Assembly (NCBI RefSeq): GCF_003264855.1
Contig: NZ_NFZS01000001.1
Span: 2,232,001 to 2,296,000 of the forward strand
Direction: 5' to 3'
DNA: 64,000 bases
Source of the DNA: Dyella jiangningensis
GTDB lineage: Bacteria > Pseudomonadota > Gammaproteobacteria > Xanthomonadales > Rhodanobacteraceae
The position numbers and the translations under genes were made by a program. The notes below the pieces were generated by a model that was given only the letters and a program-made list of their open reading frames with translations, was not told where the DNA came from and did no database searches. Below are positions 13,271-19,999 of the stretch, piece by piece (positions within the stretch are counted from its first letter, which is position 1; each line of letters begins with the position of its first letter).

Positions 13271-14203
13271 ATGATCACTGCCACCCAGAAATGCGCCGCC
13301 GAAGCCATCGTCAACCTCTTCGAAACCGGCTCGGTGCGCGGCGACTACAGCAACGTCACTCTTGCTGCGGGGGACACCGGGCATTTGACGTTCGGACGTT
13401 CGCAGACCACGTTGAGTTCGGGCAACCTCGCCACGCTGGTGCAGCGCTATTGCGCCAATGCGGCGGCCCGCTTCTCGGCGGCGTTGAACCCCTATATCCA
13501 GCCGTTGGTGAATTGCGACCTTGGCCTGGACGACGACAAGTACCTGCACAACCTGCTGCGGGCGACGGCGGACGATCCGGTCATGCGCGATACGCAGGAC
13601 CAGTTCTTCGATGATGTGTACTGGGCGCCGGCACAACGTGCCGCCACCAAGCTGGGCATCACCTTGCCGCTAGGCATGGCCGTGGTCTACGACAGCACGG
13701 TGCACGGCTCCTGGCCCAGGCTTCGCGACAGCACGACGCAGCAGGCTGGCGATATCCAGGCGCTGGGAGAGAAGGCCTGGATTTCCGCCTACGTCGACAC
13801 GCGCCGCGCCTGGCTGGCCAACAACGCCAATGCGTCGCTTCGACCCACGGTCTACCGCATGGATGCGTTGAAGCGGCTGATCGAGCTGGGCCAGTGGGGG
13901 CTGGAGCTTCCCCTGGTCGTGCGTGGCTCCGAGATATCCGTGGCCACGATGAATGCCACGCCGACCGGTTGCTTCGACGGGCCCGTGTCGGGAAGCCGCT
14001 CGCTCAGCCTCGCCACGCCCTTGGTGCGGGGCATGGACGTGCGGCTGGTCCAGCTCAATCTGTCGCGCGACCAGCCCGACATCAAGGCGGATGGCATCTT
14101 CGGGCGGGGTACGGCGGATGGCATCAAGGCGTACCAGGCCAGGAACCAGTTGCCCGCGACGGGGGTCGCCGACACGACCCTGATCGCGAAGCTGGTGACC
14201 TGA
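13271..14203 (+). CDS. GH46 chitosanase-like protein with C-terminal peptidoglycan-binding domain
   Basis: 310 residues with ggaggg just before the ATG. Residues 1-235 match GH46 chitosanases: AIVNLFETGS supplies the general acid Glu18, and GDTGHLTFGRSQTT the second acidic residue (Asp near 35), as in Streptomyces N174 chitosanase; VYDSTVHGSW is another family segment. Residues about 250-308 are a PG_binding_1 repeat (VRLVQLNLSRD, ADGIFGRGTADGIKAYQ). GH46 enzymes are normally secreted, yet no signal peptide is seen here. The fold is related to lysozyme, and with the cell-wall-binding domain the substrate could be chitosan or deacetylated peptidoglycan. Confidence 0.8.
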   Translation: MITATQKCAAEAIVNLFETGSVRGDYSNVTLAAGDTGHLTFGRSQTTLSSGNLATLVQRYCANAAARFSAALNPYIQPLVNCDLGLDDDKYLHNLLRATADDPVMRDTQDQFFDDVYWAPAQRAATKLGITLPLGMAVVYDSTVHGSWPRLRDSTTQQAGDIQALGEKAWISAYVDTRRAWLANNANASLRPTVYRMDALKRLIELGQWGLELPLVVRGSEISVATMNATPTGCFDGPVSGSRSLSLATPLVRGMDVRLVQLNLSRDQPDIKADGIFGRGTADGIKAYQARNQLPATGVADTTLIAKLVT

Positions 14204-14260
14204 TCCCGGCGATCGGGGCAGGGCACCGTATCTCAAGCGGTGAGAGCGGCGCCGTGCTAT

Positions 14261-14285
14261 CTTGATTACCGGCCCAGTAATCAAG
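14261..14285. promoter_or_regulatory. Perfect dyad operator upstream of the umuD-like/imuA/imuB/dnaE2 operon
   Basis: CTTGATTAC (14261-14269) and GTAATCAAG (14277-14285) are perfect reverse complements separated by 7 bases. The dyad ends 8 bases before the ATG of the first gene and overlaps a TATCTT-like -10, so a bound repressor would block both transcription and ribosome access. It does not match the usual LexA boxes (CTGT-N8-ACAG, or the TTAG-N6-TACTA form of Xanthomonads). It is most simply the operator of the operon's own regulator or of a divergent LexA. Confidence 0.7.
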
Positions 14286-14293
14286 ACAACCCT

Positions 14294-14863
14294 ATGCCTC
14301 CTGCCGAACATGGTGGACGCCGCCCCGGCGCCGGTCGCCCGGCCGGTGAGCCCAGTCAGCGCATCCGTGTGCCTGAAAGCCAGGTGCCGGCGGTGCTGGC
14401 CTATCTGGATGCCTATCGCGAACCGGCCTCCCTGGATGCGCCGCGACCGGTATCGCTGATGCCCTCGACGGTGGCGCTGACCGCCTTCCTCAGCCGCGTG
14501 CCCGCCGGCGTGCCCTCGCTGGCGGAAGACGACGTCGACGAGGTCGTCGACCTCAACGAACACCTGGTGCTGCCGGGGCATGAACCCAGCACCTTCATCA
14601 TCCGCGTGTCGGGCTGGTCGATGATCGGCGCGGGCATCTTCGATGGCGACGAAGTGCTGGTGGATCGCGCCCTGGCGCCGCGCCAGGGCGACATCGTGGT
14701 GGCTGCGGTCAACAACGAACTGACCATCAAGCGGCTGGGCAAGGTGGATGGTCATGTCGCGCTATTGCCCGAGAACGCGCACTTCAAGCCCATCGTGTTC
14801 CGCGAAGGAGAGACGCTGAGCATCTGGGGCGTGGTCACGCGCTGCCTGCGCACGCTGCGTTGA
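14294..14863 (+). CDS. UmuD/LexA-like self-cleaving protein (S24 peptidase) with extended N-terminus
   Basis: 189 residues. Residues 75-189 are a LexA/UmuD-type S24 domain: the nucleophile Ser109 in VSGWSMIGAG and the general base Lys146 in NELTIKRLG. The self-cleavage site is Ala71-Gly72 in RVPAGVPSLAEDD, matching the CG/AG sites of UmuD and LexA. Residues 1-70 are much longer than the 24-residue arm of E. coli UmuD: GGRRPGAGRP and then QRIRVPESQVPAVLAYLDAY, which resembles a ribbon-helix-helix DNA-binding segment. It heads the imuA-imuB-dnaE2 operon, 7 bases before imuA, and sits next to a perfect dyad. It may be a repressor, a polymerase accessory factor, or both. Confidence 0.85.
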   Translation: MPPAEHGGRRPGAGRPAGEPSQRIRVPESQVPAVLAYLDAYREPASLDAPRPVSLMPSTVALTAFLSRVPAGVPSLAEDDVDEVVDLNEHLVLPGHEPSTFIIRVSGWSMIGAGIFDGDEVLVDRALAPRQGDIVVAAVNNELTIKRLGKVDGHVALLPENAHFKPIVFREGETLSIWGVVTRCLRTLR

Positions 14864-14870
14864 GGCGGCC

Positions 14871-15494
14871 ATGGGCCAGGTCGTCGCGCTCGATTCGCTG
14901 TTCCACAGTCGCCAGGTCTGGCATGGCCGTGCGGCGCCCTTGCCGGGCAGCAGCGAACCGACCGGCTGGCCGATGCTGGATGCAGCCCTGCCTACCGGCG
15001 GCTGGCCCGAGCATGCGATGACCGAAATCCTCTTGCCCGCCGATGGCGTCGGCGAGCTGCAACTGGTGCTGCCCACGCTGGCGCGCATGACGCAGGCACA
15101 GCGACACGTGATGGTGATCGCGCCGCCTTATGTGCCCTGTGTCGCCGGATGGGAGGCGCGCGGCGTGGTGATGGCGCAGGTGGATATCGTGCAGGCGGCC
15201 GATCGCGACGTGCTGTGGGCTGCCGAGCAATGCCTGCGTTCGGGCAGTTGCGCCGCCGTGCTGGCGTGGCCGATGCACGCGGATGATCGCGCGCTGCGCC
15301 GCCTGCAGGTGGCGGCCGACACGGGCAAGGCGCTGGCCTTCGTGTTTCGCGATCGCCGCCATGTGGCGCACGCGTCACCCGCCGCCCTGCGACTGGAGCT
15401 GGAAAGCGATCCATCGCCGCGCGTGCACGTGCGCAAATGCCGTGGCGGCAATCCGCCTGCGCAGGCGATCGCGCTGGCCGCCGGCTGGTCGTGA
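14871..15494 (+). CDS. imuA: Translesion synthesis protein ImuA
   Basis: 207 residues, starting 7 bases after the umuD-like stop. The opening PTGWPMLDAALPTGGWPEHAMTEIL is the ImuA signature, related to RecA and SulA. It lacks a full Walker A motif, as ImuA proteins do. ImuA works with ImuB and DnaE2 in damage-induced mutagenesis in many bacteria without UmuDC/DinB function; in myxobacteria and Pseudomonas, ImuA interacts with RecA. Its position between the self-cleaving protein and imuB is the standard cassette order. Confidence 0.92.
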   Translation: MGQVVALDSLFHSRQVWHGRAAPLPGSSEPTGWPMLDAALPTGGWPEHAMTEILLPADGVGELQLVLPTLARMTQAQRHVMVIAPPYVPCVAGWEARGVVMAQVDIVQAADRDVLWAAEQCLRSGSCAAVLAWPMHADDRALRRLQVAADTGKALAFVFRDRRHVAHASPAALRLELESDPSPRVHVRKCRGGNPPAQAIALAAGWS

Positions 15495-15506: not shown

Positions 15507-16919
15507 ATGCTATGGGCCTGCATTTTGCTGCCGCAACTGGCGCTGGACGGCGTCCTCCGCCGTCGTCCGCCATCGGACGAGCCATTGGTGCTGGTAAGCG
15601 GCCCGGCGCAGGGTCGCATCGTGCACGCGGCCAATGCCGCCGCGCGTGCGGTGGGCATCTATCGCGGGCAGCGGCTGACCGCGGCGCAGGCGTTGCTGCC
15701 GTCCTTCGCCATGGTGGAATACAGCACCGGCGACGAATCGCATTGGCATCGATTGCTCGCGGCCTGGGCGTATCGCTATAGCGGCGACGTGGGGTTGCTG
15801 CCGCACGCGGTGGTGCTGGAAGTCAGCCGCAGCCTCAACCTGTTCGGTCCGTGGCCACGTTTCGAATCGCTGCTGCGCGAAGACCTGGTCGGCCTGGGTT
15901 TTCGCCATCGTGTCGCGCTGGCGCCGACGCCGCAGGCCGCCTATGTACTCGCCGGCGTGGAAGACGGCATGGCGGTGATGGATGCGCCGAAGCTGCGCGG
16001 CGCCTTGTCGTTCATCGACGTGGCGCGTGCGCGCCTGCCCGAAGGCGTGGCGCCATCGCTTCAATCCATGGGCATCCGCACGCTGGCACAGCTGCTGGCC
16101 TTGCCGCGTGCCAGCCTGCAGCGCCGCTTCGGCGGCGAACTGGTGGCGCAGATCGATCGCCTGCTCGGCGACGAACCCTCGCCGATGGAAAGCTACCGAC
16201 CGCCCGACACGTTCGACCAGCGTATGGAGTGGACGCACGAGATCGAGCACGTCGAGGCGCTGATGTTCCCGCTGCGCCGACTGACGGGTGATCTCTCTGC
16301 CTATCTCGCCGGGCGCGATGGTGGCGTGCAACGTTTCGAGCTGCTGCTGGAACATCGCGATAGGCCGCCGACGCGCGTGAGCGTAGGCATGCTGGCCGCG
16401 GCGCGCGAAGCCTCGCTGCTGTTCGATTGTGCACGCGGCCGGCTGGAGCGCGTGGAGTTGCCGCAACCCGTAGTGGCGATGCAGTTGCTTGCGCCCGACC
16501 TGCCTCCCTTCGTGCCGGCTGGCCGTGATTTGTTCGATGCACGGCCGGCGAACGCGATGCCGCTGGATCAGTTGCGCGAGCGTCTGCGTTCGCGCCTGGG
16601 CGAGCAGGCCATCCAGCATCTCAGGCGCACGGTGGATCCGCGCCCCGAGCTGGCGCAGACCTCGGCGCCTTATGTCAAGGAAGCGCCGCCACGCAAAGGC
16701 CTGCCGCGCCCCGCCTGGCTGCTGGACCAGCCACGTCCGTGGCGCGGCCCTCCGCCGGAACTGCTGGCAGGGCCGGAGCGTATCGAAACCGGTTGGTGGG
16801 ACGGCGGCGAGATCCGGCGCGATTACTACGTGGCACGCACCGCGCAAGGCCAATACGCCTGGATCTATGGCGCACCGGGCGAGCAAGGCAGGTGGATGCT
16901 GCACGGGTGGTTCGCATGA
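15507..16919 (+). CDS. imuB: Y-family polymerase-like protein ImuB
   Basis: 470 residues of the Y-family polymerase fold that has lost catalysis. The first catalytic Asp of Y-family enzymes (normally in a DxDxFFAxVE motif) corresponds here to [14 protein letters not shown], without the proper acidic set, and the palm motif SxDE is replaced by [12 protein letters not shown]. ImuB acts as a hub that binds the beta clamp and recruits DnaE2 and ImuA. A helix-hairpin-helix-like segment ([18 protein letters not shown]) follows around residue 190. The C-terminus ([20 protein letters not shown]) is typical. Its TGA overlaps the dnaE2 ATG (ATGA), indicating translational coupling. Confidence 0.93.
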
Positions 16920-19900
16920 ACGACTACGCCGAGCTGCATTGCCTGTCGAACTTCTCCTTCCAGCGCGGCGCGTCGAGTGCGCAGGAGCTGTTCGAGCGAG
17001 CGAAGGACTGCGGCTATCGCGCACTGGCGATCACCGACGAGTGTTCGCTGGCAGGCATCGTGCGCGCGCTGGAAGCATCGCAGGAAACCGGTGTTGCGCT
17101 GATCGTCGGCGCCGAGTTCCAGATCGAGAACGGCCCCAAGCTGGTGCTGCTGTGCGAAAACCTGGAAGGCTACGAGTCGATGTGCGCACTGATCACGCGC
17201 GGGCGTCGACGCGTGGCCGAGAAGGGTACGTATCGCGTGACGCGCGAGGACTTTGCCGACGGCCTGCCCGGCACGCTGGCCTTGTGGGTGCCCGCGATGG
17301 AGCTGCGGCAGGAAGAGGGCGCATGGGTGCGCTCGTTGTTCGGTGAGCGTGCCTGGATCGTCGTGGAGCTGCATCGTGGTCCTGATGACGCGCGGCGGCT
17401 GCAATCACTGGAAGCGCTGGGCCAGTCGCTCGACATGCCGTTGGTGGCGGCCGGTGACGTACACATGCACGTGCGCCGCCGCCGCACCCTGCAGGACGTG
17501 CTCACGGCCACGCGCCATCGCTGCACGGTGGCCGAAGCGGGTGCGCTGTTGTTTCCCAATGGCGAGCGCCACCTGCGCAGGCGCGAGACGCTGTCGGCGA
17601 TCTATCCATGTTCGCTGATGGAAGAAAGCGTGCGCATTGCCGAGCGCTGCACCTTCCAGCTCACCGAGCTGAAATATCGCTATCCGGCGGAACTGGTGCC
17701 GGAAGGGCAAACGGCCATCAGCTGGTTGCGCCACCTTACGGAAGAAGGCGTGCGCTGGCGATGGCCGCAAGGCGTAACCCCGAAGGCGCGCAAATTGATC
17801 GACGACGAACTGGCGCTGATCGAGAAGCGCGAGTACGAGCCGTTCTTCCTTACCGTGAAGGACATCGTGGATTTCGCGCGCAGCCAGGGCATCCTCTGCC
17901 AAGGGCGAGGTTCGGCGGCGAACTCGGCCGTCTGCTTTGCGCTGGGTGTCACCGAGGTCAACCCGGATACGCACGAGCTGCTGCTGGAGCGTTTCATTTC
18001 CGTCGAACGCGATGAAGCCCCCGACATCGACATTGATTTCGAGCACGAGCGCCGCGAAGAAGTCATCCAGTACATCTACCGCAAGTACGGGCGTGAGCGC
18101 GCTGCGCTGGCCGCGACCGTCATCAGCTATCGCGGCAAGAGCGCCGTGCGCGACGTGGCCCGTGCGCTTGGGCTGCCCATGGATCAGGTCGACCTGCTTG
18201 CCAAGGTGTTCGGGTGGGATCGCGAGAACGTGCTGGAAGACAACCTGCGCGAGCATGGGCTCGACCCGGACAACCCGCTGATTCAGCGTATCTGTCGGCT
18301 TGCTTTCGAGCTGCTGGATTTTCCGCGGCATCTGTCGCAACACGTGGGCGGCTTCGTCATTTTCGACCAGCCCTTGTCGCGCCTGGTGCCGGTGGAGAAC
18401 GCGGCCATGCCGGACCGCACCATCATCCAGTGGGACAAGGATGATCTGGAAAAGATGAACCTGCTCAAGGTCGATTGCCTGGCGCTGGGCATGCTGACCT
18501 GCGTGCGCAAATGCCTGGATCTCCTTCGCTCGCACCATGGGCGCGACCTCAGCATGGCGAAGATCGGCGCAGACCCTACCGACAAAGATACCTACGAGAT
18601 GATCCAGAACGCCGACACCATCGGCGTGTTCCAGATCGAAAGCCGCGCGCAGATGGCCATGCTGCCGCGACATCGGCCGGAGAAGTTCTACGACCTGGTG
18701 ATCCAGGTGGCGATCGTGCGACCGGGGCCCATTCAGGGCGACATGGTGCATCCGTATCTGCGGCGCAAGCGCAAGGAAGAAGAGGTCACCTATCCATCCG
18801 AGGAATTGAGAGGCGTGTTCGAGCGCACGCTTGGCGTGCCACTGTTTCAGGAACAGGTGATGAAGCTGGCCATGGTGGCCGCGGAATACACGGGCGGCGA
18901 AGCGGACGAACTGCGCCGCGCCATGGCCGCATGGAAACGGCACGGCGGCCTGGAAAAGCATCGCGACAAGCTGATCGGACGCATGCTGGAAAAGAACTAC
19001 ACGCGCGAGTTCGCCGAGCGCATCTTCGAGCAGATCAAGGGTTTTGGTTCCTATGGTTTTCCCGAGAGCCATGCCGCCAGCTTCGCGCAGATCGCCTACG
19101 TCAGCAGCTGGCTGAAGTGCCATTACCCCGGCGCCTTCCTGTGCGCCTTGCTCAACGCGCAGCCCATGGGTTTCTACGCGCCGTCGCAGCTGGTGCAGGA
19201 CGCGCAGCGCCATGGCGTGCACGTGCGCCCGGTCGACGTGCGATCCAGCCATTGGGACAACCTGCTGGAGCCCGATGCAACGTCCAACGGCGGCTATGCG
19301 ATACGCCTGGGTTTTCGCCAGGTGCGTGGCTGTCGCGAGGATGTGGCGCTGCGCCTCGCGGAAGTGCGTGATCGCATGCCGTTTGCCGATGTGGCCGATC
19401 TATGCGCGCGTGCCGGACTGGATGCGCGTCACCAGGAAGCCTTGGCCGAGGCAGGCGCCTTGCGCGGCATCGCGGGCCATCGCCATCGTGCCCGCTGGGC
19501 CATCGCCGGCATCGAGGCGCAGCTTCCGCTGTTCGGTCATGCCAGCCCTGAAGAAGAGGATGTCTCGTTGCCGCCGCCGACCCAGGCGGAGAACACGCTG
19601 GCCGACTATGCGCGTACCGGCTTGAGCCTCGGGCCGCATCCGGTTCGCCAGATCCGCGGCCGACTGCAGGCAGTGCGCTGCGTGGATTCGCGCGCGCTGC
19701 GGTATCGGCCGCATGCCAGCCACGTGCGTGCGGCGGGCCTCGTCACTCAGCGCCAGCGCCCGCAGACGGCGAGCGGCGTCACCTTCATCACGCTCGAAGA
19801 CGAATTCGGACCGATCAACGTGGTGGTATGGAGCCATGTGGCCGCGCGACAGCGCCGCATCTATCTCGAGGCTCGCCTGATGGGGGTGGAGGGGCGTTGG

Positions 19901-19999
19901 GAGCAGGTGGATGGTGTCAGCCATCTCATCGCGCATCGCCTGATCGATTTCAGTTCCTTCCTGGGTGATCTGGATAGCCGCTCCAGGGATTTTCATTGA
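16916..19999 (+). CDS. dnaE2: Error-prone DNA polymerase DnaE2 (ImuC)
   Basis: 1027 residues, the size of DnaE2 (about 1000-1080), shorter than replicative DnaE. It is the catalytic subunit of the mutasome. The N-terminal PHP domain starts [17 protein letters not shown]; the palm has [19 protein letters not shown] and the catalytic aspartates in [36 protein letters not shown] is also typical. Near the C-terminus an OB-fold segment ([20 protein letters not shown]) is present. The DnaE2-type PHP lacks several metal ligands of replicative PHP domains. It overlaps imuB by 4 bases and ends the operon. Confidence 0.96.

Follow-up and report, generated by a model that had tools for sequence, protein, structure and literature searches.

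The window considered here, a stretch of 64,000 nucleotides from Dyella jiangningensis, contains a mutagenesis operon whose first gene encodes a protein of 189 amino acids with an S24 peptidase domain (14294..14863, + strand). Directly downstream and on the same strand are imuA (14871..15494; 213 bits against NF033429, cut-off 150), imuB (15507..16919) and dnaE2, also known as imuC, the gene for an error-prone polymerase (16916..19999; 1483 bits against NF004225). The assignment of imuB is based on a 33-bit match to the IMS domain (PF00817) and on its position in the cassette, as no NCBIfam model is matched by its product above the model's cut-off. Together, these matches confirm that the S24 gene heads an imuA-imuB-dnaE2 cassette, as an earlier, sequence-only reading of this DNA had proposed. 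Upstream of the operator described below is a gene for a glycosyl hydrolase of family 46 with a peptidoglycan-binding domain, which was identified by Pfam search (13271-14203).

The S24 protein matches PF00717 (Peptidase_S24) with 100.5 bits over residues 66-181, and the NCBIfam model for the autoproteolytic subunit of Pol V with 126.5 bits (cut-off 110), the latter over residues 71-185 only. Within an alignment of 90 rows, no variation is seen at Ser109 (the nucleophile; codon 14618..14620, +), Lys146 (the general base; codon 14729..14731, +) or Gly72, and the conservation of Ala71 is 90 % or higher; this, with the PF00717 match, upholds the active site and the Ala71-Gly72 site named in the earlier reading. 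Self-cleavage between these two residues (14504..14509, +) is predicted from the alignment and from homology to UmuD, LexA and UmuDAb (PMC4807011). The C-terminal domain is of the UmuD type, agreeing at 72 % with that of a related locus (L019) and at 39-41 % with the three best LexA matches, and the best Foldseek match of the S24 part in the PDB is UmuD'. The LexA DNA-binding domain, PF01726, was not found in the protein. Since cleavage is placed at residues 71-72, the protein has about 70 residues before the site, as previously noted, and not the short arm of about 24 residues known from UmuD. The first 43 of these (14294..14422, +) make up an N-terminal head that consists of an HGGRRPGAGR arm, the linker PAGEPS, the segment QRIRVP and a helix at residues 28-42, the motif of such heads being HGGxRPGAGR...RVPESQV over about 45 residues.

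Before the gene is a perfect dyad, CTTGATTAC-CGGCCCA-GTAATCAAG, i.e. CTTGATTAC-N7-GTAATCAAG, at 14261..14285 (no strand assigned), with arms of 10 bp if the flanking T/A is included. As the dyad ends at 14285 and the ATG is at 14294, the two are separated by 8 bp, the spacing originally reported. The box, for which there are no binding data, has the layout TTGA-N5-GGCCC-N5-TCAA (core 14271-14275, span 23), and is regarded as an operator of the UmuDAb type based on its conservation before orthologues, several of which show matched changes on both arms. It is the sole match in the window with up to three mismatches, and no match arose in 100 dinucleotide shuffles. The dyad overlaps an extended -10-like element, TGcTATcTT (14255..14263, +), which is inferred from the sequence and from conservation among relatives, and for which a sigma-70 scan found no promoter-like site. 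A second palindrome, TCTCA-N5-TGAGA (14231..14245, no strand assigned), is located 12 nt before TATCTT; it is present before most head-bearing genes of the family Rhodanobacteraceae and at none of 29 lexA loci. It does not fit as a -35 hexamer, and it was rejected as a regulon motif because the genome has only two exact sites, that of the window and one approximately 12 bp after a gene that by eye looks LysR-type.

Across the whole genome, the pattern TTGATTN11AATCAA occurs once exactly, once with one mismatch and 22 times with two (24 places), which answers the genome scan that had been proposed; a reversed control pattern has five places in all at up to two mismatches. The control contains TTAG/CTAA, which is probably rare in coding DNA, and the excess of 24 over five is not fully explained. 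Of the 14 inexact places that were inspected (out of 23), 13 fall inside open frames of at least 150 codons and one (L310) does not. The longer pattern TTGATTACN7GTAATCAA has, at up to three mismatches, three further places, each with three. A wider regulon was rejected, although a few weak members are not excluded. With one exact operator in the genome, the protein is therefore better viewed as a repressor of one operon than as a full substitute for LexA.

Absence of the dyad upstream of orthologous cassettes had been set as the outcome that would refute the proposal, and the opposite is seen. Among 30 homologous loci compared, of which L033 is truncated at a contig end and L029 lacks a full head, TTGA-N15-TCAA stands shortly before the start in all 14 cassette heads of the UmuD type (L005-L018). 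Some of these show concerted changes in the two arms, e.g. TTGAAT...ATTCAA in L015 in place of TTGATT...AATCAA. The box is likewise found at three cassette heads of another genus, g9 (L034, L317 and L318, the last with one arm mismatch), such that none of the 17 head-bearing genes that begin a cassette is without the dyad. As a control, 29 lexA upstream regions (of 30 loci; two starts are doubtful) contain no such box, differing from it by at least three mismatches of 12, and many of them carry other dyads.

The association is general. For 107 distinct head-bearing proteins of at least 150 residues with at least 100 bp of upstream sequence, an arm score of 16 or more is reached by 89 of the genes versus 82 of 1070 shuffles (8 %), and a score of 17 or more by 59 versus 19; 18 genes score below 16. 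The threshold was set at 16 rather than 14 because 58 % of shuffles reach 14, and the core was left out of the score. The head pattern misses at least one head-bearing gene (L020), whose box was seen by eye. G and C occupy the ends of the core in 11 of 12 distinct boxes of span 21, 20 of 22 of span 22, and at least 33 of 39 of span 23; the commonest centre is GTCCC at span 23 and GTTAC/GTAAC at span 21. The boxes lie about -23 to -77 relative to the start, and their sources include gamma- and betaproteobacterial records, one alphaproteobacterial record (L089) and some viral contigs. Downstream of the 107 genes is imuA in 17 cases, a umuC-like gene in 61 and, at that sensitivity, neither in 29. 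A class-wide search, in which at most eight candidates per genome were scored, gave an S24 match in at least 263 of 369 genomes; it served to fetch loci only. Related S24 genes, annotated as Pol V subunits or as UmuD, are numerous in plasmid and phage records, and among the matches listed none covers the head from its start.

LexA is not found in the genome of the window, in that PF01726 has no match at an E-value of 0.01, and only one S24 gene, that of the window, exceeds its cut-off (the second match has 15.9 bits against 23.3). The seven sampled genomes of the window's genus have PF01726 matches of at most 19.7 bits (cut-off 23.7), and the six of genus g19 have matches of up to 23.7 bits. 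Two of the latter, G019 and G081, come just over the cut-off, G081 only together with its frame neighbours; both matches are partial, covering positions 25-62 in a frame of 175 codons and 26-62 in one of 176. Every one of these sampled genomes has a single gene like that for the window protein. The wider family sample comprised 97 genomes, in which searches for the S24/head gene, PF01726 and imuA were tallied together, and genomes were counted as lexA-bearing at 45 bits or more for PF01726. The imuA gene exceeds its NCBIfam cut-off in 74 of the 97. All 56 imuA genomes that bear lexA have it within 1.1 kb of imuA, and in 17 of the other 18, a head-bearing S24 gene is in lexA's place and lexA was not found; in G071, imuA is about 100 bases from a contig end and the gene upstream of it is cut off. 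As for the 23 genomes lacking imuA, 21 are without PF01726 at 45 bits, while G001 and G002 show matches of more than 50 bits, the frames being 92 and 1340 codons long. LexA-bearing genomes of the family can likewise carry head-bearing S24 genes, at other places (e.g. G009, G032, G034 and G058), and the head is therefore not tied to the loss of LexA as such. A second head-bearing gene is present in the LexA-less G028. These co-occurrence data cover the 97 family genomes only and nothing outside the family.

UmuC was not found in the window's own genome, whose four Y-family genes comprise two above the Pol IV cut-off, one that is Pol IV-like, and imuB. DUF4113, the C-terminal domain of UmuC, is absent from the three Y-family proteins other than ImuB and present in a UmuC control. 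The Pol IV-like protein has 457 residues (G000:C1:553228-553680, L357), and Pol IV-like matches of 112-115 bits are seen in five of 20 genomes of the genus. This bacterium shows no trace of LexA, the usual DNA-damage switch, and a UmuD-like protein very probably takes over the role of LexA in the control of the mutagenesis operon.

The head and the operator both have a described relative, UmuDAb of Acinetobacter, which the sequence-only reading had missed. Relatives were drawn from a genome scan and from a scan of 41 Acinetobacter genomes, where UmuDAb was recognized by its length of 203 amino acids, AG at 83-84, Glu24 and a published probe sequence. Twelve of 28 loci examined encode proteins of the published UmuDAb length, 203 residues, with AG at 83-84 as expected. 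Three (L146, L148 and L149) have the N-terminus MPKKKE that is found in the cloning primer from the literature, and also contain the published probe TTGAAAATGTAACTTTTTCAA. When heads were aligned by hhalign with Acinetobacter rows left out of one side, the probability was 98.7 % and the E-value 4.7e-16, with 51 % identity to the UmuDAb head over 39 columns. Glu24 of UmuDAb corresponds to Glu19 of the window protein, a position at least 90 % conserved in the 90 rows. Additionally, a phage-protein profile of unknown function, phrog_21736, matches the heads of the window protein, UmuDAb and L034. In A. baylyi, UmuDAb represses, needs its head to do so and is uninducible if uncleavable; removal of the head, the changes K40P/R41P and E24K, and blocking of cleavage at A83 each alter regulation as expected for a repressor (PMC4807011). 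The published operator is TTGA(N4)GTWAC(N4)TCAA, to which UmuDAb binds in gel shifts, and in A. baumannii the core outweighs either arm (PMC11332147). The same kind of box is located 64-67 nt upstream in the UmuDAb loci, and Acinetobacter is, according to the UmuDAb papers, a genus without LexA.

How the head might read DNA is less clear. AlphaFold2 was run twice, on alignments of 43 and 90 rows (monomer models only, no DNA), and gives one helix in the head, at 28-42. Confidence is fair for residues 20-42, which form an extended segment plus this helix, and low for the arm. The ribbon-helix-helix-like segment that had been suspected is not supported, as a second helix would be needed and Pfam gives no ribbon-helix-helix match. 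Pfam searches on 16 heads matched no DNA-binding family, with one irrelevant weak match in one member, and a PDB sequence search with the head gave weak matches only (best E-value 0.1). Published AlphaFold and I-TASSER models of UmuDAb are described as having a LexA-like arrangement of helices (PMC11332147); a LexA-like helix-turn-helix was not seen in the models of the window protein, UmuDAb itself not having been modelled. It may be conjectured, and this is a guess, that paired strands (RIRVP) sit on the core while the basic RPGAGR arms contact the A/T-rich flanks, a picture that would be in line with the importance given to the operator core in published work.

Two natural experiments bear on the head and its box. 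In genus g9, three genomes (G061, G008 and G075) have a UmuDAb-type head on a LexA-type body, and LexA-type bodies on which such a head replaces the helix-turn-helix are encoded at L034, L317, L318 and L093. Compared with the LexA of G032, which belongs to g9 as well, the L034 body has 84 % identity; its three best matches of the UmuD type reach 34-44 %. The TTGATT box is absent upstream of the G032 lexA and present at the head-swapped g9 genes; judging by these comparisons, the operator in g9 is changed to match the head on a LexA body. The second case concerns the linker, defined as the stretch between RPGAGR and RVP, in the 89 of 107 genes with a score of 16 or more. Short linkers go with span 23 in 31 of 32 tips and eight-residue linkers with span 21 in 20 of 22, whereas long linkers (35 tips) are split among span 22 (21 tips), span 23 (12) and others (two). 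On a tree built from S24 parts only, 12 pairs contrast a short with a longer linker; the longer box is on the short linker in nine, three are ties and none is reversed, although the pairs are not wholly independent, because one tip serves in two of them. Operator length thus appears to follow the head linker in part; linker length as a strict code was rejected, as the long linkers split across spans.

We therefore conclude, with a good deal of confidence, that the product of the first gene is a repressor of the UmuDAb type that acts on imuA-imuB-dnaE2, in a LexA-less lineage. Sequence comparison establishes the parts of the protein, the conserved operator, the failure to find LexA and UmuC, the occupation of lexA's place next to imuA and the homology of the head; DNA binding, repression and RecA-driven cleavage are inferred by analogy with UmuDAb, LexA and UmuD. 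The earlier suggestion of a dedicated, self-cleaving repressor with an operator of its own, rather than a polymerase subunit, is supported to that extent, the head on a LexA body adding to the evidence. In an undamaged cell, the protein, dimerized through its S24 domain, would bind the TTGATT...AATCAA operator by its N-terminal heads, cover the -10-like element and the start region, and silence its own gene along with the mutagenesis genes. Upon DNA damage, RecA filaments would provoke self-cleavage at Ala71-Gly72, parting the head from the dimerizer and opening the operon. Against the repressor reading are the lack of a recognized DNA-binding fold, the core GGCCC, the 18 of 107 genes that score below 16, the single exact operator in the genome, the presence of head-bearing S24 genes in LexA-bearing genomes and the absence of transcript or binding data.

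A dual role, which does not exclude repression, is possible but not what we would expect: the intact protein would repress, and the cleaved C-terminal part would aid lesion bypass by ImuB/DnaE2. The retention of a UmuD-type rather than LexA-type C-terminal domain in three genera (g1, g3 and g19) and the umuC-like gene that follows 61 of the 107 head-bearing genes would be in keeping with it; however, g9 runs its cassette with a LexA-type C-terminal domain under the same head, and hence the UmuD-type domain is not needed there. That the protein is solely a UmuD-like polymerase accessory, acting with ImuB/DnaE2 after cleavage, with the dyad belonging to another regulator, is improbable. UmuD binds Y-family polymerases, which favours such an accessory, as do the UmuD-type C-terminal domain and acceptance of the protein by the Pol V subunit model. 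Yet UmuC was not found in the genome, the head would be left without a role, head and dyad stay together in different genomes and on different bodies, and UmuDAb did not supply the function of UmuD (PMC4807011). Most likely, the protein is not a polymerase subunit alone. Least credible of all, the dyad might be an RNA hairpin or attenuator in a short leader, as its closeness to the start codon (about 30 nt or less) would allow, but the position of the box varies among relatives, those of UmuDAb loci lie 64-67 nt upstream and are bound in gel shifts (PMC11332147), the window's box overlaps the -10-like element, and a scan found no terminator-like site (leader folding was not computed).

The repressor proposed here shares with UmuDAb of A. 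baylyi ADP1 and A. baumannii ATCC 17978 a homologous head, an S24 C-terminal domain with an Ala-Gly site, a TTGA-core-TCAA operator in the promoter region and a genus without LexA (for Acinetobacter, by the papers). The two differ in that UmuDAb stands opposite ddrR and represses umuDC genes, whereas the window gene heads imuA-imuB-dnaE2 and has one exact operator in its genome; UmuDAb has a head linker of eight residues, a box of span 21 and the core GTWAC, compared with six residues, span 23 and GGCCC. As the two cores agree only in their terminal G and C, the operator is called a variant and no claim of identity is made. The lexA-imuA-imuB-dnaE2 cassettes are those of the lexA2 type. The LexA proteins that head them have the same gene position (56 of 56 adjoin imuA), but the window protein lacks their PF01726 helix-turn-helix and has a UmuD-type C-terminal domain, and, unlike the window gene, 29 lexA upstream regions have no TTGATT box. 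UmuD, the Pol V subunit, has the C-terminal fold and catalytic residues in common with the window protein, but not the approximately 70 residues before the cleavage site or an operator of its own. Streptococcal HdiR and the non-canonical LexA known from Bacteroidetes are further damage-responsive repressors outside classical LexA, with which no sequence comparison was made; HdiR is said to share its origin with phage repressors, and the non-canonical group to be exclusive to Bacteroidetes (PMC8565304). No account of a UmuDAb-type family outside Acinetobacter was found in the literature, mostly without subscription journals and partly in incomplete texts (including PMC10100956, PMC3978071, PMC7273328, PMC8565304 and PMC518961), and the word UmuDAb is absent from the main text of PMC12926913 and PMC6511836. 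What is known is thus the UmuDAb head and its kind of operator, so far described in Acinetobacter, and what is new is the place at the imu cassette and a spread wider than we found described.

The data suggest that this repressor family is widespread, follows a single operator grammar and is able to replace LexA at a mutagenesis cassette. They offer a sequence rule for spotting self-repressing 'UmuD' genes, and call the standard annotation as Pol V subunits into question; moreover, the natural experiments of one head on two bodies, and of a span that partly follows the linker, may help to explain how a head of unrecognized fold reads DNA. We incline, though without firm assurance, to a broader proposal, namely that the head, made of an RPGAGR arm, a strand and a single helix, is a DNA-reading module of minimal size that can be moved between proteins, belongs to neither the helix-turn-helix nor the ribbon-helix-helix type, and defines a second class of proteobacterial damage repressor beside LexA; most of its S24 carriers, Pol V subunits by the standard model, would then be self-repressing switches, and head and operator would have been exchanged together onto LexA bodies. 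Positions 68-104 of phrog_8312, a phage family of unknown function, match the head with an E-value of 3e-4, a hint that the module may occur in other proteins as well. Lastly, a UmuD-like protein encoded beside umuC in Acinetobacter (L122, 1336-2040) has a different N-terminal segment, ribbon-helix-helix-like by eye, which suggests that UmuD bodies carry more than one kind of head.
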